From positions 1 to 35,490 of the forward strand of contig JAJYGT010000157.1 of assembly GCA_021785005.1 (NCBI GenBank): DNA of 35,490 nt. Reading direction: 5' to 3'. Shown one piece after another: positions 1,793-27,180 of this stretch. Both the position numbers and the translations under genes were made by a program. The notes below the pieces were generated by a model. It ran no database searches. It was not told the origin of the DNA and worked only from the letters and a program-made list of their open reading frames with translations. How positions within the stretch are numbered: position 1 is the stretch's first letter; every line of letters starts with the position of its first letter. Source of the stretch: Actinomycetes bacterium. Lineage in GTDB: Bacteria; Actinomycetota; Acidimicrobiia; Acidimicrobiales; Acidimicrobiaceae.

Positions 1793-2194
1793 CTACCAGA
1801 CGTAGCAAAGAACCTCGCCACCGACTTTCTGTTTGCGTGCTTCGCGATCAGTCATAAGACCTTTGGACGTCGAAAGAACTGCAACACCAAGGCCACCGAG
1901 GACTCGAGGAACAGCTTCAGCTCGTGAGTAAACTCTAAGCCCAGGCTTTGATACCCTCTGAATACCTGAAATAACTCTTTTGCGTTCAATCGAGTATTTC
2001 AAGCGAATCTCAAGAAATTTACCAGGCCTTCCTTCGATTTCGCTTAAAGAAAAATCTTCTATATAGCCTTCGTTTTTCAAAACATCTGCAAGCGCGCTCT
2101 TGAGTTTTGACCCTGGCATTACCACGGTCTCGTGCATAGCAGTATTTGCATTACGAATGCGGGTCAGCATATCTGCTATTGGATCGGTCATCAT
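1793..2194 (-). CDS. rpsH: Ribosomal protein S8
   Basis: S8 binds the central domain of 16S rRNA; in E. coli it is also the translational repressor of the spc operon. The 133-residue protein has [14 protein letters not shown] at the N-terminus and ends with [26 protein letters not shown], both diagnostic. Two consecutive ATG codons are available at 2194 and 2191. A GGAGG motif lies 11 bases before the first, which I prefer. It starts 15 bases after the rpsN stop. Autoregulation by S8 is known only from enterobacteria and is not shown here. Confidence 0.96.
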
Positions 2195-2209
2195 AGTTAG
2201 TAAGTCCTC

Positions 2210-2395
2210 CTACCAGCTTGCCTTGGTGACACCGGGAATCTCGCCTGCGTGAACCATGACGCGCAAACAAATTCGACAAAGTCCGAACTTACGGTAAACC
2301 GAGTGCGTGCGTCCACATCTGCCACAACGGGTATAAGCACGAACCTTGAACTTTGCAGCTCGCTGTTGCTTTTCTATCAAAGCTTTTTTAGCCAT
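2210..2395 (-). CDS. rpsZ: Ribosomal protein S14, zinc-binding type
   Basis: A 61-residue short S14 of the zinc-containing (C+) type, a primary component of the 30S head. Four cysteines, C24, C27, C40 and C43, form the CxxC-x12-CxxC zinc ribbon, which is intact here. The C-terminus [11 protein letters not shown] is canonical. Many actinobacteria also carry a longer cysteine-free S14 elsewhere that replaces this one during zinc limitation; none is in this window. The gene lies between rplE and rpsH with short gaps, as is usual. Confidence 0.95.
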
Positions 2396-2402
2396 CTTTT
2401 AT

Positions 2403-2969
2403 CTAACCTTCTTTCTTGAAGGGAAATCCGAATGCCAATAACAATTCTCGGCCATGATTATCATTATTTGCTGTAGTTACAATGGTTATATCCATGCCAC
2501 GAGTCGCATCTACTTTGTCATACTCAATCTCTGGAAAAATAAGTTGCTCCATGACACCAAAGGTGTAATTTCCTTTACCATCAAACGAATTTGGATTCAA
2601 ACCACGAAAATCTCTTATGCGTGGAATCGCCAATGCGACTAAACGGTCGAAAAACTCCCACATACGATCTCCGCGCAGGGTTACCTTTGCACCAATCGCA
2701 TTGCCTTGACGAAGTTTGAACGCGGCGACGGACTTGCGAGCTCTTGTTACAATCGGCTTTTGACCTGTAATAGTCTCAAGATCACGTAATGCCCCTTCCA
2801 ACAAAGAAGCTTGTTGGGTCGCACGTCCCACACCCACGTTAATAACAATCTTCTCCATGCGGGGAACTTGCATCACGTTTGACAAACCGAGAGAGTCTTT
2901 TAGTGCAGAGCGAATTTCAGTATCAAACTTCACCTTCAAACGAGGAATTACCTTTGTCTCGGTACTCAT
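2403..2969 (-). CDS. rplE: Ribosomal protein L5
   Basis: L5 contacts 5S rRNA and the P-site tRNA. The 188-residue product shows [25 protein letters not shown]-type sequence, the [22 protein letters not shown] segment and the C-terminal [30 protein letters not shown] start it at the ATG of MSTETKV rather than an upstream in-frame codon, because GGAGG lies 6 bases before it and the ATGA overlaps the TGA stop of rplX by four bases. This is a classic translationally coupled junction. Confidence 0.96.
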
Positions 2970-3271
2970 AGATCGCCTCCACACTTGCGACAAATTCTCT
3001 TTTTCACACCATCGGAACCGAACTCATAGCCAACCCGCGTAGGACCGCACGAGCTACAAACTATCTGCACGTTAGATGCGTCAATAGGCATATCTTTTTC
3101 GATAATTCCACCTTGGGTCACAGTTTGGGTCGGGCGAAAATGTTTCTTAGCGACATTTACTCGCTCCACAATCAAGCGATTTTCTTTAGGAAGCACACGA
3201 GAAACAGTAGCTTCACGCCCTTTATCCTTACCTGCCAACACCTTGACTTTATCACCTTTGCGAATTTTCAT
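2966..3271 (-). CDS. rplX: Ribosomal protein L24
   Basis: L24 is an early assembly protein that nucleates folding of 23S rRNA. The 101-residue protein has the KOW motif [20 protein letters not shown] at the N-terminus, and a C-terminal half with the paired cysteines CSSC and CRKC that are common in actinobacterial and other Gram-positive L24. The ATG at 3271 has GGAGG 9 bases upstream; an earlier in-frame TTG overlaps that site and is rejected. Its stop overlaps the rplE start by four bases. Confidence 0.95.
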
Positions 3272-3272
3272 C

Positions 3273-3641
3273 CTAAAGCACCTCCGGTGCAAGCGAAATA
3301 ATTCTCATGAACTTCTTGTCACGAAGCTCGCGACCCACTGGTCCGAAAATACGTGTGCCTCTCGGCTGCAACGCGTCATTGATAATAACCGCTGCGTTTT
3401 CATCGAAACGAATGTAGCTGCCGTCGGGTCGTCGCTTTTCTTTCTTGGTCCGAACAACTACGCACTTGACAACATCTCCGCGCTTTACGTTGGCACCAGG
3501 AATGGCGTCTTTTACCGTAGCGACAAATATATCGCCAATACTTGCATACCGACGTCGAGATCCACCGAGCACTTTGATAACAAGCACCTCTTTAGCTCCC
3601 GAGTTGTCAGCAACTCTCAGTCTGGTTTCTTGTTGAATCAC
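3273..3641 (-). CDS. rplN: Ribosomal protein L14, GTG start
   Basis: L14 lies at the subunit interface and contacts 16S rRNA. The start is the GTG of [15 protein letters not shown], which gives exactly the family length of 122 residues. A GGAG motif lies 8 bases upstream, and the GTGA overlaps the rpsQ stop by four bases. An in-frame ATG 11 codons earlier would add a non-conserved tail and is rejected. Diagnostic segments include [17 protein letters not shown] and [28 protein letters not shown]. Confidence 0.96.
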
Positions 3642-3913
3642 CTTGCGCGCTCCACAATCTCTATAACTCTCCATCGCTTTAATTTCGACAAAGGTCGGGT
3701 TTCTTCAACACGTACAGTATCTCCCATACGCGCTTCGAACTTCGAATCGTGCGCGTAAAGCTTCTTGGTACGTTGCACCGTCTTGCGATACCTTGGGTGG
3801 CGAACTCGCTCGATAACCGCAACGATAACAGTATCTGTCATCGCGTCAGAAATTACCGTGCCCTCGCGCACCTTGCGGGTACCGTGTTTCACATCTACAT
3901 CATCTAAAGACAT
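3638..3913 (-). CDS. rpsQ: Ribosomal protein S17
   Basis: S17 is a primary 16S rRNA-binding protein of the 30S body with an OB fold. The 91-residue protein shows [19 protein letters not shown], the basic [19 protein letters not shown] stretch and [21 protein letters not shown], all diagnostic. A short polar N-terminal leader ([13 protein letters not shown]) precedes the conserved domain. AGGA lies about 7 bases before the ATG. The TGA stop overlaps the GTG start of rplN, so the two are probably coupled. Confidence 0.96.
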
Positions 3914-3926
3914 CGCTAATTCCTAC

Positions 3927-4136
3927 CTACTTCGCACTCGCAGCAGCTGCCGCACGTTCGTTCAAAATTGTACGCATACGCGCTATGTCACGCTTCACGC
4001 TCTTGATGCGCGAAGTGTTGGCGACTTGTGCTGTCGCAATATCGAACCGAAGATTAAAAAGCTCCTTAACATTTTCGTCAAGTCTCTCTTTTAATTCGTG
4101 ATCCCCAAACTCTCTAAATTCTGAAGCCTTAGACAT
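3927..4136 (-). CDS. rpmC: Ribosomal protein L29
   Basis: A 69-residue helical-hairpin protein near the exit of the peptide tunnel, where with L23 it forms a docking site for nascent-chain factors. The pattern FGDHELKERLDENVKELFNLRF followed by VANTSRIKSVKRDIARMRTILNER is typical. The C-terminus is a short alanine-rich tail. The ATG is preceded by a GGGG motif at the end of rplP and lies 6 bases after the rplP stop. Nothing is unusual. Confidence 0.95.
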   Translation of the reverse strand: MSKASEFREFGDHELKERLDENVKELFNLRFDIATAQVANTSRIKSVKRDIARMRTILNERAAAAASAK

Positions 4137-4142
4137 TTGCCA

Positions 4143-4574
4143 CTACCCCGCATTCTCATGTGAAAACGAATCACGAATTACAAACCGCGCCTTCAAAGGC
4201 AGCTTTTGGATAGCTCGCTCCAGCGCACCCCTGGCAAGCTCTTCAGTGACCCCATCAATTTCAAACAAAATTCGACCGGGCTTCACCACTGCCACCCAAA
4301 ACTCTGGATTACCTTTGCCGGATCCCATTCGGGTTTCAGCTGGCTTCTTAGTAACGGGCTTATCTGGAAACACTCGAATCCAAACCCGTCCACCTCGGCG
4401 AATATGCCTGGTCATAGCCACACGAGCGGCCTCAATTTGCCGGGCGGTAAGCCATCCTGACTCTAAAGCCTGAATGCCGTACTCGCCGAAATTTAGCTCC
4501 GTACCGCCTTTAGCGACGCCCGAACGTCGGCCTCGCTGCATTTTACGATGCTTTACCTTTTTGGGCATCAACAT
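4143..4574 (-). CDS. rplP: Ribosomal protein L16
   Basis: L16 sits next to the A-site tRNA and the peptidyl transferase centre. The 143-residue product begins [19 protein letters not shown], matching the actinobacterial MLIPRRVKHRK pattern, so I keep the first ATG although a second one lies two codons later. A GGGAG motif lies 10 bases before the first ATG, at the end of rpsC. Typical segments are [23 protein letters not shown] and [20 protein letters not shown]. The gene follows rpsC by two bases. Confidence 0.96.
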
Positions 4575-4576
4575 AA

Positions 4577-5431
4577 TTAATCGGTCTCCCGTTTGAAATG
4601 CGCAGTCTCATGAGAGTCTGGACGCACCTTCTTCTCTAGATCTTCCGATCGGTCAAGCAATTTTTCCAACTGCTCCTCACCACTCAACGCTGGGCTTAAA
4701 ACCTTATCGCGACCGTCAACGTTGCGACGTCCACCACCAGCTGATACGCGCCGTGGCCGACTTGGCGCTTCCGGTGTGACCTCAGTGTGACTTGGAACTT
4801 TGTAGGGAACAATGTCGCCTTTATAAATCCATACTTTTACACCGATACGACCAAAGGTTGTCCGGGCTTCTCTAAAACCGTAGTCAATATCGGCTCGCAA
4901 TGTATGCAAAGGAACACGACCCTCACGATATTGTTCTTTACGAGCCATTTCAGCTCCGCCCAGGCGGCCGGAACACTGGATCTTGACTCCTTGCCCACCA
5001 GCACGCTCAACTAACTGCATCGCTCGCTTCATTGCACGTCTGAAACTGACTCTGCGCGCTAACTGGTCAGCGATACTCTGCGCAACAAGTGCCGCATCTA
5101 AATCCGGCTGAGAGATTTCTTTAACGTTGAGTTGAACTTTCTCATCACCAATCAACACGCCCAGGTCGTGACGAAGTTCTTCAATTTTCTTACCTTGGTG
5201 TCCGACAATAGGACCTACCTTGGAAGAGTAAATATCTACCCGTACGTCTCCTCGTTTGCGCTCAATCTCTACTTTGGAAAGTTGAAGAGTCTCTAAACGC
5301 TTAGTAAGGAAACTTCGAATCTTCCAGTCTTGGAGAACAGTCTCTTTATAATATTTGTCCTCGTACCAAGTAGATTTCCACTTCGTCGTGATGCCCAAAC
5401 GAAATCCGTACGGGTTAACTTTCTGACCCAT
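4577..5431 (-). CDS. rpsC: Ribosomal protein S3 with long C-terminal tail
   Basis: S3 lines the mRNA entry tunnel of the 30S subunit and carries a KH RNA-binding domain. The protein starts [14 protein letters not shown], and the KH GxxG-like loop [15 protein letters not shown] is visible near residues 78-92. The C-terminal S3 domain runs to about residue 212 and includes [15 protein letters not shown]. Residues 213-284 form a charged, low-complexity tail rich in P, R, E and K, common in length but not in sequence among actinobacteria. The start codon shares one base with the rplV stop (TAATG). Confidence 0.97.
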
Positions 5432-6084
5432 TACTTGTTCTCACTTTCATCGGCGTCTAACGCCTCGGCGTTTACACTCTCTTGCGCTTCTTGCGAATCA
5501 TCTTGTGCCAGTGCCTCTGGAACTGAAACTTCTTCCTGAACGACTTCTGCTTCGATCAGGCCAGTATCTGGAGTCGGAGCTTCTACAACGTCGATTATTT
5601 CGACTTCTGGCGACACTTCTTCGCCGGACAATCCTTGGCCGGTTGAACGCTTCACTCGCACAGATCGTCGCTCCGCGCGCTTTGTAGCTTCAGCCGAACG
5701 TTTCCGAGAAATCTCCGAGATTCGACTCGAGTCCATTCTTGCAACATAAATGGTAATATGACTGGTTCTCTTCAAGATCTGAGAAGCACGGCCGCGCGCG
5801 CGAGGCTTAAAACGCTTAAGTGTTGGACCCTCGTCCGCAAAACAAGCCGAAACAAACAGTTCGTCGGCAGGAATACTATCGTTATTCTCCGCGTTTGCCA
5901 CAGCCGAAGCAAGTAGCTTTAAGATCACTTTGGCAGCACCGCGCTCTGAATAAATCAAAATATCGCGTGCAGTAATAATGTCTTTACCGCGAATTAAGTC
6001 GAGCACTTCGCGTACCTTAGAAGCTGACATCCGATAGGACTTCAAAATCGCCCTCGTACCCGGATTTACAAGTGTTACGCTCAT
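5431..6084 (-). CDS. rplV: Ribosomal protein L22 with acidic C-terminal extension
   Basis: L22 lines the narrow part of the peptide exit tunnel. The canonical domain occupies about residues 1-115, with [19 protein letters not shown] and the C-terminal hairpin region [19 protein letters not shown]. Residues 116-217 form an extra tail: first basic ([20 protein letters not shown]), then strongly acidic and E/D/V/A-rich up to the end. Standard L22 is about 110-120 residues, so the tail nearly doubles it. The gene overlaps rpsS by four bases (ATGA) and touches rpsC. Confidence 0.95.
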
Positions 6085-6362
6085 CTTCTCTTGCCGACCC
6101 TCTCCTGTCCAGCATGGTACTTAAAGGTTCGAGTCGGGCTAAACTCACCCAACTTGTGACCAACCATGGACTCGGTAACGTATACGGGTACGTGTTTGCG
6201 CCCATCATGAACTGCCATCGTGTGACCCACCATGTCAGGAATAATCGTGGAACGGCGAGACCAAGTCTTAATGACTTTCTTTTCACCTTTAGCATTCATA
6301 TCATCGACCTTTTTCAAAAGGTGAGAATCGACAAAAGGACCTTTTTTAAGACTACGACTCAT
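6081..6362 (-). CDS. rpsS: Ribosomal protein S19
   Basis: S19 is a 30S head protein that contacts the A-site tRNA and forms a bridge to L5. The 93-residue protein is canonical: [19 protein letters not shown], the [21 protein letters not shown] core, and [18 protein letters not shown]. The ATG has a strong AGGAGG upstream. Its TGA stop overlaps the rplV start. No deviation from the family is seen. Confidence 0.97.
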
Positions 6363-6376
6363 ATTTTCTAGTCCTC

Positions 6377-7213
6377 CTAACGCCTAGCGCCGCGCGAACG
6401 ACGACGACGAACAATCAAAGTGTCACTTGCCTTACGCTTCGAACGCGTACGACCTTCAGGCTGACCCCAAGGTGATACCGGATGACGGCCACCAGAAGTC
6501 TTGCCTTCTCCACCACCGAGTGGGTGGTCAACTGGGTTCATTGCAACACCACGTGTTTGTGGACGAACGCCCTTCCAGCGATTTCGACCAGCTTTTCCAA
6601 TGGAAATCAATTCGGCTTCACTATTGCCGACTTCGCCGACGGTTCCACGACAGTCAATTGGCACTCGTCGCATTTCTGTCGAAGGAAGACGAAGAGTAGC
6701 AAAATCACCTTCCTTGGCCACGAGCTGCACCGACATACCGGCTCCTCGAGCCATTTTGCCGCCTTGCCCAGGTCGTAATTCAACGTTGTGAATCACTGTA
6801 CCAACAGGTATATTACGCAAAGGAAGCGCGTTTCCAACTCGGATGTCAGCGGCAGCACCCGACTCGACTAGCTCTCCCACCTTCAGCTTCGCTGGTGCTA
6901 ATATATAAGCTTTCTCGCCATCCAAATAGTGCAGTAGTGCAATACGAGCGTTCCTGTTTGGGTCGTACTCAATAGCAGCGACCTTTGCCGGCACGCCATC
7001 TTTACGACGCTTAAAATCGACTAGTCGATATTGCCTTTTATGGCCACCTCCGCGATGACGAGCTGTCTTGCGTCCATAACTATTACGACCACCGGTTGAA
7101 CTTTTTGGAGCCAACAAAGACTTCTCAGGAAAATCCTTAGTAATCTCAGCAAAGTCAGAACTAGACTGAAATCTTCTACCAGGGCTTGTTGGTTTTCTCT
7201 TTCTAATTGCCAC
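6377..7213 (-). CDS. rplB: Ribosomal protein L2, GTG start
   Basis: L2 is needed for subunit association and peptidyl transferase activity. The 278-residue protein carries [20 protein letters not shown] near the N-terminus, the central [14 protein letters not shown] segment, and the conserved C-terminal [18 protein letters not shown] with the key histidine. The tail [21 protein letters not shown] is basic, as usual. Translation begins at GTG with GAGGG about 6 bases upstream. It follows rplW by 13 bases. Confidence 0.97.
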
Positions 7214-7226
7214 TTCTTGCCCTCAC

Positions 7227-7514
7227 TTACTTCTGAAACAGTTCAATTTGACCCTCTTTAAGGGTAACCATTGCTCTTTTGCTGCCAGGAAGCCTCGAAT
7301 ATGCGCCAGTTTTTCTCGACCGCTTGCGCTTTCCTTTACGGTTCAGCGTGTTGACTTTGGCGACCTTTACTGAAAAAATCTCCTCAATCGCTTTACCGAT
7401 CTCAACCTTGTTGGCACGCGAATCTACCACAAACGTGTAGACACCGGCATCTGAAAGTCCGTAGGACTTTTCCGACACTACTGGCTTTAAAATAATTGAA
7501 TAAGCACTCTTCAT
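7227..7514 (-). CDS. rplW: Ribosomal protein L23
   Basis: L23 is located at the tunnel exit and is the main docking site for trigger factor and SRP. The 95-residue protein begins with the typical IILKPVVSEKSYGL motif and contains YTFVVDSRANKVEIGKAIEEIF and VAKVNTLNRKGKRKRSRKTG. It ends in a short glutamine/lysine tail. The ATG shares one base with the rplD stop (TAATG), which implies translational coupling. Confidence 0.96.
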   Translation of the reverse strand: MKSAYSIILKPVVSEKSYGLSDAGVYTFVVDSRANKVEIGKAIEEIFSVKVAKVNTLNRKGKRKRSRKTGAYSRLPGSKRAMVTLKEGQIELFQK

Positions 7515-8221
7515 TACAAAACCTCTGCCACTGGAATTGAGCTAACCTGTGTCTCGTCGACCTCAGCGTCAATTGAGCCAATCAATGTACTGTTGTCAAA
7601 AACAATGAAGTCTGACCACAACACGTCGTAAGCATTCAACTCCGCCTCGTCTATCAAACGAACTGCTGCTAAATTCGCAAAAGTCTTTACCAGGTTGTAG
7701 TCAAAAGGATTTACCACAAGCAAAACCTTCTTTTCTGACAAGTTCGCGTTCGCCAAAAATTCGATACCTAATTTGGTCTTGGGCTCATCGAAGTTAAAGG
7801 CATCCACAACAAGGACCGCCTCACAAGCAGCTCTATCTGAAAGCGCCTGATACAAAGCGGCACGTTTCATCTTCTTAGGAGTTCTTTGTTCATAGTCGCG
7901 AGGTTTAGGTCCAAGCGCAACGCCACCGCCAGCCCATTGAGGGGATCTGGTGGAACCCTGCCTAGCCCGACCAGTTCCTTTTTGACGAAACGGCTTTGCA
8001 CCGCCTCCGCTAACTTCTGCACGCGTCTTGGTAGATTGCGTACCTCGTCGGGCTGCTGCCAACTGGGCAGTAACCACTTGGTGCAACAAAGACACATTCG
8101 GAATAAGTCCAAAAATATCTGGATTCAGTTCAACACTTCCAATAGTTTTACCAGTTTGGTTCACTAACGGCGCGTTATGTCGGATTCGTGCCGGCGTATC
8201 CTTTACAATTTCCGTACCCAT
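7514..8221 (-). CDS. rplD: Ribosomal protein L4
   Basis: L4 extends into the peptide tunnel; in E. coli it represses the S10 operon. The 235-residue protein has a globular domain and the long basic loop (about residues 58-105) with GGGAKPFRQKGTGRARQGSTRSPQWAGGG, which is diagnostic. The N-terminus (about 15 residues before the conserved part) and the acidic C-terminus are slightly longer than usual. It starts one base after the rplC stop. A transcription terminator upstream of rplC makes L4-mediated control worth considering, but that is inference. Confidence 0.96.
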   Translation of the reverse strand: MGTEIVKDTPARIRHNAPLVNQTGKTIGSVELNPDIFGLIPNVSLLHQVVTAQLAAARRGTQSTKTRAEVSGGGAKPFRQKGTGRARQGSTRSPQWAGGGVALGPKPRDYEQRTPKKMKRAALYQALSDRAACEAVLVVDAFNFDEPKTKLGIEFLANANLSEKKVLLVVNPFDYNLVKTFANLAAVRLIDEAELNAYDVLWSDFIVFDNSTLIGSIDAEVDETQVSSIPVAEVL

Positions 8222-8222
8222 C

Positions 8223-8864
8223 TCACTTACCAGCCTTGATTGCGTCTCGTACTAATACTTGGCCACCCTTAGGACCTGGAATGGCGCCTTTGACCAGCAA
8301 AAGACCCCGCTCAACGTCAGCTTTAATGATTCGAAGATTCAAAGTGGTAACCTTTTCGGAACCGTATTGACCTGCCATCTTGGTACCTTTAAACACTCGC
8401 GCCGGTGTGGCACAAGCGCCAATTGAACCGGGAGCTCGATGCTTTTTGTGGTTACCGTGCGTAGCTTTTTGCCCACTGAAATTGTGCCTTTTCATGCCTC
8501 CAGAAAAGCCATGACCCTTGGAGACACCGGTAACATCTACAAAATCGCCAGCTGCCCAAATCTCAACACCATATTCAGCTCCAACTGAATATCCAGACAC
8601 ATCGTCTAGGCGAAACTCCAATGTCTCGACGCCAGGTTCAACACCCGCTGCTCGAAACACGCCAGCTTCTGGCTTATTCAACTTGCTCTCTGACTTAACA
8701 CCATGCGTAACGCACAGCGCAGAATAACCGTCAGTGGAGGGTTGTTTCACCCTCATGACCCTCATTGGGTCAACCTTGACCACGGTAACTGGAATAACCT
8801 CATTTTGGTCATTCCACACCTGAGTCATGCCTAGTTTTTTACCTACTAAAGCTTTGGTTGCCAT
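8223..8864 (-). CDS. rplC: Ribosomal protein L3
   Basis: L3 is one of the first proteins to bind 23S rRNA. I choose the ATG of MATKALVGKKLGMTQVW, giving 213 residues and the usual N-terminus. The frame is open for 26 more codons to a GTG immediately after the terminator hairpin, but that extension is not conserved. The signature FSGGMKRHNFSGQKATHGNHK is intact. The Shine-Dalgarno sequence is poor (GGAA directly before the ATG). The gene is preceded by a 207-base leader carrying an intrinsic terminator. Confidence 0.94.
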   Translation of the reverse strand: MATKALVGKKLGMTQVWNDQNEVIPVTVVKVDPMRVMRVKQPSTDGYSALCVTHGVKSESKLNKPEAGVFRAAGVEPGVETLEFRLDDVSGYSVGAEYGVEIWAAGDFVDVTGVSKGHGFSGGMKRHNFSGQKATHGNHKKHRAPGSIGACATPARVFKGTKMAGQYGSEKVTTLNLRIIKADVERGLLLVKGAIPGPKGGQVLVRDAIKAGK

Positions 8865-24550: not shown

Positions 24551-25243
24551 CTAAACCTTTGCCACTTGGGCAAACTCAAGCTCAACCGGTGTTTCTCGAC
24601 CAAAAATATTGACTAATACCTTTAGCTTGAGATGATCCTCATTTATCTCTGAGATCACTCCCGTCAAACCTTCAAATGCGCCATCCTTAACGGTCACCGG
24701 CTCACCCACCTGATATTCAAGCTGCGGACGAGACTTTCTTGGTGTTTCGGTGTCTTCTTCCGAGAAATGGAGCATCGATTCCACCTCTTTGCGTGAAAGA
24801 GGTGTTGGCTTCGATCCCATTCCAACGAATCCGGTCACACCAGGGGTATGACGGATAACGTCCCAAGCGAGATCGTTTAACTCGGCGCGCACCAAAATGT
24901 AGCCGGGAAACACCTTCTTCTGCGAGACAAGCCTCTTGCCATTTTTAATCTCTGTAACGTCTTCGAGCAGAATAACAATGTCGTGAATCCTCTCCTCGAC
25001 CTGCATCGAAACCATTCTCGAATTAAGATTCGATTTTACCTTGTTCTCATAGCCGGAATATGAATGAATCACATACCAATCACCGGGAAGGTCATACGGA
25101 CTCTCTCGCCGCTCATGAACCGTCATAGTTGGAGCGTCTGCTTCTTTCACATATTCCAAGCGGCCGCGCGCACCAGTGCGCCCGTCATCTATTTGTACAG
25201 AATCTGAAGTCTGTGCTGGTTGTTCGTCGAAATAATCACTCAT
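24551..25243 (-). CDS. nusG: Transcription antitermination factor NusG
   Basis: NusG binds the RNA polymerase clamp and couples it to Rho or to the ribosome through S10. The 230-residue protein has an acidic N-terminal extension of about 50 residues, common in actinobacteria, then the NGN domain ([37 protein letters not shown]) and a C-terminal KOW domain ([18 protein letters not shown]). GAGGG lies about 7 bases before the ATG. It follows secE by 20 bases. Confidence 0.97.
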
Positions 25244-25263: not shown

Positions 25264-25557
25264 CTAACCAAATAAAAACAGAACCGCTCGAGAAAAGACT
25301 AAATTTAACAAAAATATCAGGCTAATCAATACTACCAAGGTAATAAGAACAACTGCGGAATAATTCACAACAGTCTTTCGACTAGGCCAATTAACTTTCT
25401 CTAGCTCGTCGCGTACTTCTTTCACGTAAATTTTCGTAGTCATCTTGCGTGACTCGGGCTGGTTCTTTTGCGAAGCCATCCGCTTTTGAATCGACTGGCG
25501 ATCTTGTTCTCCTTGGCCCTGTTGCTTAGCCATCATCCTTTTCATTTGTCGATTCAA
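25264..25557 (-). CDS. secE: Preprotein translocase subunit SecE
   Basis: SecE is the clamp-like subunit of the SecYEG channel in the cytoplasmic membrane. The conserved amphipathic helix [20 protein letters not shown] is followed by one transmembrane segment ([23 protein letters not shown]) near the C-terminus, the single-TM form. A polar Q/K/M-rich N-terminal tail precedes it. I favour a TTG start at 25557 because AAGGGG lies seven bases upstream; ATG codons at 25545 and 25533 are alternatives. Its leader lies directly behind tRNA-Trp. Confidence 0.9.
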
Positions 25558-25584: not shown

Positions 25585-25657
25585 CACGATCGGCGGGACT
25601 CGCACCCCCAACACCGGGTTTTGGAGACCGGTGCGCTACCAATTGAGCTACTACCCT
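25585..25657 (-). tRNA. tRNA-Trp (CCA), structurally degenerate
   Basis: A tRNA-Trp with anticodon CCA in the loop CTCCAAA lies at its conserved place before secE. The D-loop AATTGGTA and discriminator G73 are normal. However, every stem has a defect: G2-G71 and A6-G67 in the acceptor, T12-C23 in the D stem, an extra C that breaks the anticodon stem, and G50-G64 in the T stem; T55 is G. No CCA is encoded. Function is uncertain; it may be a pseudogene or contain sequencing errors. Confidence 0.65.
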
Positions 25658-25669
25658 AAAGACAGATAG

Positions 25670-25678
25670 ATAATACCA
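25670..25678 (-). promoter_or_regulatory. Extended -10 promoter of the tRNA-Trp/secE/nusG unit
   Basis: On the minus strand TGGTATTAT combines a TGn element with TATTAT, which matches the -10 consensus at five of six positions. The hexamer ends 12 bases before the tRNA-Trp 5' end, so transcription would begin about six bases upstream of the tRNA. The -35 region is poor, which is typical for extended -10 promoters. Confidence 0.5.
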
Positions 25679-26005
25679 GAAACTCTAGACAAGATCGACT
25701 TCTAAGTCCTGGGAAAATCCGGTGCAATCTAGGACTCAATAGTCTATTTGGATTAGCACGACAAGCGGATAGTATTTTTCCCTAGTGGTTCACAATAACT
25801 TATAAGAGCACCCACACCCAATGACAACCGTGTCAAAACACACAAGAACCCATTTTTCGCCCGATGGCATCACGCCAAATACGCCAAGTAACAAAAGACC
25901 CGCAATTCATGATGGAAGACTCAAAGTATTTTAGAAAGTCACCGACCGTAAATCCAAGGCAGCGACAAACACGATTTCCTCTACTTCAGAAAAAATAAAT
26001 ATACT
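25679..26005. other. Gene-free region between the sigma factor gene and tRNA-Trp
   Basis: These 327 bases have no plausible gene on either strand. The end nearest tRNA-Trp holds upstream promoter sequence for that tRNA. The end nearest the sigma gene is A/T-rich on the minus strand (TATTTATTTTTTC) but has no stem, so no intrinsic terminator is seen. In mycobacteria this interval between rpmG and trpT is occupied by hadABC. Confidence 0.5.
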
Positions 26006-26593
26006 TTAGTTTTCCAACGCCGCATCGTCTTGGGACTCGAAACCTGCAGCGCCAAGTGCAGCCCTTAATTGCTTTCTTGCTCGATGCAAACGAATTTTAG
26101 AATTGGACTCAGAGATACCTAGCGTATCGGCTATTTCGTCATGGTCAAATCCATAAAGGTCTTTTAAGACAAATACAAACTTCAAGTTTTCAGGCAAAAC
26201 CTCAAGTGCCTTGAGGAGTTCAACAACAAAAATAGGATCACGTTCCAGCACAGGGCTATCTGCCAAAGACTCCTTGGTCTCGTCCTCAGCTGGATTTCCC
26301 AAAATAAGCTCGAAACTCCGTCGACGAGCTTTAGCCATCAATGTTGCACTTGCATTATTGACAATCGTGATCATCCATTTAAAAAAACTCGAATCGCCGC
26401 GAAAATTCGTAACCGATTTAAATGCCCGGATATACGCATCTTGGAGTGCATCACGAGCGTCCTCGATATTGCCTGTCAGCGAAAGAGCGCGCTTTAAGAG
26501 ATTGGGGTACGTTATACGTACCAGCTCTTCGAACGCATCTTTGCTGCCGGTCCGGGCCTCATCAACAAGCTTTTTTAGTGCGTTGGACTCCAT
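26006..26593 (-). CDS. ECF-family RNA polymerase sigma factor
   Basis: A 195-residue extracytoplasmic-function sigma factor that would redirect RNA polymerase to a small regulon. Region 2 (about 20-90) has NIEDARDALQDAYIRAFKSV and FRGDSSFFKWMITIVNNA; region 4 (about 125-180) has LPENLKFVFVLKDLYGFDHDEIADTLGISESNSKIRLHRARKQL, a clear helix-turn-helix. I prefer the ATG at 26593, preceded by AGAGG, over an ATG nine codons earlier. No anti-sigma gene is adjacent, so its signal is unknown. The product resembles the SigE/RpoE group in general form. Confidence 0.9.
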   Translation of the reverse strand: MESNALKKLVDEARTGSKDAFEELVRITYPNLLKRALSLTGNIEDARDALQDAYIRAFKSVTNFRGDSSFFKWMITIVNNASATLMAKARRRSFELILGNPAEDETKESLADSPVLERDPIFVVELLKALEVLPENLKFVFVLKDLYGFDHDEIADTLGISESNSKIRLHRARKQLRAALGAAGFESQDDAALEN

Positions 26594-26960: not shown

Positions 26961-27029
26961 CTATCTCTCCATCTAAAGCCAGCGTCCGCACTAAGCGAAC
27001 ATATCGTTTGATCCTATTATCCCACCATG

Positions 27030-27103
27030 TAGCGGCGGTCGGACTCGAACCGACGACCCCACGATTATGAGCCGTGTGCTCTAACCACCTGAGCTACGCC
27101 GCC
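27030..27103 (-). tRNA. tRNA-Met (CAT), elongator type
   Basis: The cloverleaf is well formed: acceptor GGCGGCG with CGCCGCT (a G-U closing pair), D stem GCTC/GAGC, anticodon loop CTCATAA with CAT, and T arm GTCGG-TTCGAGT-CCGAC. The anticodon stem lacks the three G-C pairs of initiator tRNA, so it is elongator Met; an Ile tRNA read with lysidine is less likely. Discriminator A is present and CCA is not encoded. It is followed by rpmG, as in mycobacteria. Confidence 0.9.
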
Positions 27104-27104
27104 A

Positions 27105-27180
27105 TGGAGCCCCCTGTCGGAATCGAACCGACGACCCCATCCTTACCATGGATGTGCTCTGCCGTCTGAGCTAAGGGGGC
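27105..27180 (-). tRNA. tRNA-Thr (GGT)
   Basis: The cloverleaf is perfect: acceptor GCCCCCT/AGGGGGC, D stem GCTC/GAGC, anticodon stem CATCC/GGATG with loop ATGGTAA (anticodon GGT), and T arm GTCGG-TTCGATT-CCGAC. The discriminator is T and a CCA end is encoded. Only one base separates it from tRNA-Met, so both are probably cut from one precursor. Confidence 0.95.

Follow-up and report, generated by a model that had tools for sequence, protein, structure and literature searches.

In Acidithrix and related Acidimicrobiia, the tRNA-Trp(CCA) gene lies upstream of the secE-nusG pair, which is followed by rplKAJL and rpoBC. The gene analysed here, located at 25585–25657 on the minus strand of a 35,490-nucleotide stretch of DNA (hereafter, the window), shares with these genes its position, strand, length (73), anticodon and 5′ half, and the order of the downstream genes is common to both. 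However, it differs from them by seven substitutions, of which five break stem pairs and one replaces T55, and it is not callable as a tRNA. A different kind of described system is the error profile of Illumina reads, where swaps between A and C and between G and T are the commonest substitutions (29.2% and 26.8%, respectively), error hotspots are dominated by A/T to G/C changes, and the low-quality 3′ tails of reads carry dense substitution errors (Minoche and colleagues, PMC3334598). Our comparison of the damaged gene with its relatives and with the rest of its genome suggests that a biological novelty is improbable here.

A tRNA-Trp gene with broken pairs in all four stems

Compared with the sequence of its genus and family, the tRNA-Trp (CCA) gene of the window carries the substitutions A23C, G42C, T55G, T64G, T67G, C69T and C71G, which all fall within 25587–25635 (minus strand; tRNA positions 71 down to 23) and become denser towards 25587. 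They break the pairs 2-71, 6-67, 12-23, 28-42 and 50-64, i.e. affect all four stems, and replace T55, so that the printed gene does not form a cloverleaf with paired stems; C69T merely yields a tolerated G4-U69 wobble. Positions 1–22 and 24–41 are perfectly kept. A preliminary description of this DNA had listed the mismatches G2-G71, A6-G67, T12-C23 and G50-G64 together with T55G, each of which is indeed present, as are the tRNA-Trp identity elements that it had recorded as retained, the CCA anticodon, G73 and A1-U72. The extra C that it reported in the anticodon stem is actually a substitution when compared with the relatives (G42C, resulting in a C28-C42 mismatch), and the gene length stays at 73 nt.

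The seven changes weaken the forced cloverleaf from −28.8 kcal/mol to −5.5 kcal/mol, and the fold predicted for the altered sequence is not a cloverleaf any more. The gene scores 28.7 bits against RF00005, which is below the curated cut-off of 29, and ARAGORN made no call for tRNA-Trp at 25585–25657. By comparison, scores are 71.7 bits for the same gene in a relative (G001), 55–66 bits for the window's three other tRNAs and 49–79 bits for the genome's 40 other full-length tRNAs.

The neighbouring genes described here are all on the minus strand. The secE gene (25264–25557, with a putative TTG start) begins 27 bases downstream of tRNA-Trp and has an intact conserved start region. It is followed by nusG (24551–25243), the conserved neighbour that served to locate the locus in relatives, and then by rplK, rplA, rplJ, rplL, rpoB and rpoC. 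Upstream lie a gene named by eye from its translation as RNA polymerase sigma-factor-like (26006–26590, start approximate) and intact tRNA-Met and tRNA-Thr genes (27029–27180) in the same order as in relatives. The ∼ 350 bases between tRNA-Trp and the sigma-factor-like gene (25658–26005) have no evident gene, and prediction on the tRNA strand gave neither a promoter nor a terminator in this interval.

The host genome, its relatives and tryptophan decoding

The host genome is a 2.6 Mb draft in 176 contigs, 92% complete. Its NusG is placed with that of Acidithrix ferrooxidans (74% identity) and those of uncultured Actinomycetes MAGs, and the draft belongs to the genus of Acidithrix. The trpS gene is present in the host, although split between the ends of two contigs (C45 and C154; L257 and L258), and its middle part was not found in the assembly. 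Two other contigs of the draft (G000), C7 and C110 (L040, 1–96, and L029), both end in the same tRNA-Pro(GGG) locus with its flank and overlap by 96 bases with one base different; this may reflect redundancy in the assembly or strain variation instead of an error, and it carries little weight.

Analysis of the 42 family genomes that were searched showed that the 74-base tRNA-Trp is identical in 28 of them, spread over five genera including the host's own, and 96–99% identical in eight more. It is intact in all 36 other family genomes where the gene was found, and its position directly upstream of nusG was checked in ten of these. Five family genomes (G003, G006, G007, G023 and G034) lack the gene at this locus; because they also gave no nusG match, the region itself is most likely missing from them. 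The sole tRNA-Trp of one of them, G006, is a divergent copy within an array of 34 tRNA genes (positions 2179–6517 of the 12619-base contig C278; L256). This array lies beside genes for a DNA methylase, an HNH nuclease and a TROVE plus Ro60-type vWA protein (6908–8563) and looks like a phage or mobile element, either binned with or resident in this Acidithrix relative; the Ro60-like protein next to such a large tRNA array may deserve separate study.

The seven changes are thus an anomaly of one genome, unique within the family, and since 28 of the 42 family genomes carry the 74-base gene without any change, the damage is far beyond chance. A normal cloverleaf at the same position in relatives was what the preliminary description had itself named as refuting its claim, and this is what the relatives have: in them the locus keeps the same flanking genes, with different intergenic spacers.

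We searched the host genome, and sampled it in stretches, for a second tRNA-Trp. None was found in the assembled part (∼ 92%) by RF00005 scan, anticodon census or a loose pattern search (a T-loop preceded by an anticodon loop with CCA or TCA). The loose pattern matched on contigs C18, C148, C149 and C142, but none of these matches folds into a tRNA. G001 has 43 other anticodons, of which 38 were recovered in the host (37, plus the tRNA-Tyr in the window), and five expected ones besides Trp are missing; hence the probability of detecting a second copy is about 88%, leaving a chance of about 12% of missing it. The whole-genome search for a second gene proposed in the preliminary description came out negative to the extent of an assembly that is ∼ 92% complete. 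All 43 sites with invariant Trp in four relatives still have Trp in the host, so that Trp codons are in normal use, and UGA decoding or loss of Trp could be ruled out.

Spectrum and placement of the changes

In order to characterize the substitutions typical of the host lineage, we took the positions in 30 window genes at which the window departs from a state shared by four relatives. Among these lineage-specific changes, 56% are G:C>A:T, 10% A:T>G:C, 14% G:C>T:A, 9% G:C>C:G, 6% A:T>T:A and 5% A:T>C:G, so a relaxed gene in this lineage should gather mostly G:C>A:T. The tRNA-Trp gene shows four A:T>C:G changes, two G:C>C:G and only one G:C>A:T, with transversions accounting for six of the seven. 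Compared with the lineage spectrum, corrected for the composition of the gene, the probability of at least four A:T>C:G changes out of seven is 1.3 × 10⁻⁴, and that of at least six transversions to C or G is 4 × 10⁻⁵. A milder yardstick, the differences between the host tRNAs and those of G001, gives 0.004 and 1.5 × 10⁻⁴, respectively. The changes do not follow the mutation spectrum of the lineage, as those of a pseudogene would be expected to. Comparison with a lineage's own substitution spectrum thus offers a cheap way of telling decay from error without reads.

The changes are at positions 23, 42, 55, 64, 67, 69 and 71, separated by gaps of 19, 13, 9, 3, 2 and 2. The probability of such non-increasing gaps is 0.003 and that of so late a mean position is 0.006, both tests having been picked after the data were seen; late placement is, in addition, confounded with the location of the changes in the 3′ strands of stems (P = 0.002 for that alone). 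With the post hoc nature of the placement tests in mind, the gene combines an error-type spectrum with the placement typical of read tails.

Error, decay or a working tRNA

Judging from the sequence, we consider it reasonably likely that the tRNA-Trp as printed reflects an error of sequencing or assembly, confined to this spot, in a gene that is itself ordinary. The host would then have an intact tRNA-Trp ahead of secE-nusG, as its relatives do, and the printed letters would be a local consensus error. At a thinly covered spot, a read oriented like the tRNA may have supplied its poor 3′ tail to the consensus, or a contig tip built of such tails may have done so; good sequence would resume after approximately position 71 of the tRNA, and the reads would be expected to restore the family sequence. 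The joining of such a tip is a guess, since a de Bruijn assembler normally discards a path backed by one bad read. We favour this reading because spectrum and placement match poor 3′ read tails, the gene is intact in every family genome where it was found, no second tRNA-Trp turned up while 38 of the 43 anticodons did, the 43 conserved Trp sites are all kept, and the assembly has weak spots (its 176 contigs, the cut trpS and redundant contig ends). A point against it is that neither the 40 other full-length tRNAs nor ∼ 20 kb of conserved window genes contain a similar burst of changes. Error across the whole window was rejected, as replacements in its conserved genes are mostly conservative and form no such cluster; the absence of a burst there means that the fault, if any, is local. 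The preliminary description had regarded general error as unlikely in view of the perfect neighbouring tRNAs, but this leaves room for a local error over ∼ 50–75 bases. Dephasing during sequencing, in which the wrong base equals the preceding one, fits only G42C by eye. Among the options that the preliminary description had put forward, a locally wrong assembly fits best, given the intact relatives and the error-like spectrum.

A genuine recent pseudogene, whose promoter still serves secE-nusG while a functional tRNA-Trp (moved, duplicated or borne on a mobile element) sits in the unassembled part, is the main rival but appears doubtful. The normal-looking secE start is consistent with it, a second copy could escape an assembly that is 92% complete and lacks five other expected anticodons, and the G006 array shows that at least one member genome of the genus carries a mobile-looking set of tRNAs with a tRNA-Trp among them. 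Still, the chance of missing that copy is only ∼ 12%, the spectrum is wrong for the lineage, positions 1–22 and 24–41 are untouched, and no other family genome was seen to have lost or moved its tRNA-Trp. The earlier suggestion that the gene has moved and left a decaying copy is accordingly disfavoured by the spectrum and by the lack of a second copy when ∼ 88% of the other expected tRNAs were found. It is very unlikely that the printed sequence is correct and represents the working tRNA-Trp of the lineage, either tolerated as it stands or rescued through RNA editing or some other compensation. It is the sole tRNA-Trp in the assembled part and does keep the anticodon, A1-U72 and G73 in a genome that uses Trp codons normally; however, five broken pairs over four stems, the lost T55, the collapse in folding energy and the canonical state of every relative in a family where the gene is almost invariant all argue against this. 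We know of no precedent for bacterial tRNA editing on such a scale, and with five broken pairs and G55 the editing proposed in the preliminary description is left without support. That a free-living actinobacterium reads every UGG codon with a sole tRNA-Trp bearing these defects, helped by editing or by an unusual partner, seems hardly credible. Equally improbable are real changes that arose all at once, for instance through brief template switching or gene conversion, with another tRNA or an att-like sequence as the source. Clustered, mostly transversional changes can arise in this way, and by eye A23C with T55G, and G42C alone, make short inverted repeats. Nevertheless, the longest local match spanning at least two changes is 6 bases, a length that random controls usually reach or surpass, only one other match to the altered 3′ segment exists in the genome (three mismatches in 18 bases), and there is no element between tRNA-Trp and secE; no copy of the altered 3′ end was found in viral contigs. 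Template switching and local conversion were rejected, as no source did better than random controls.

Were the changes real, they would imply either that an essential tRNA gene has left a locus that is among the most stable in the family, or that there is an editing system new to bacteria; if they are an error, they serve as a warning that consensus errors can cluster in an essential RNA gene even in a draft of good completeness. Like a bacterial tRNA pseudogene, the window gene is a recognizable degraded copy at its ancestral place, but its spectrum is opposite to the G:C>A:T bias of the lineage and a replacement gene was not found in the assembled part. Unlike the B-tails of Illumina reads, its changes would have entered an assembled consensus; in common with these tails, it shows substitutions only, with A>C and T>G prominent and a density that rises along one strand.
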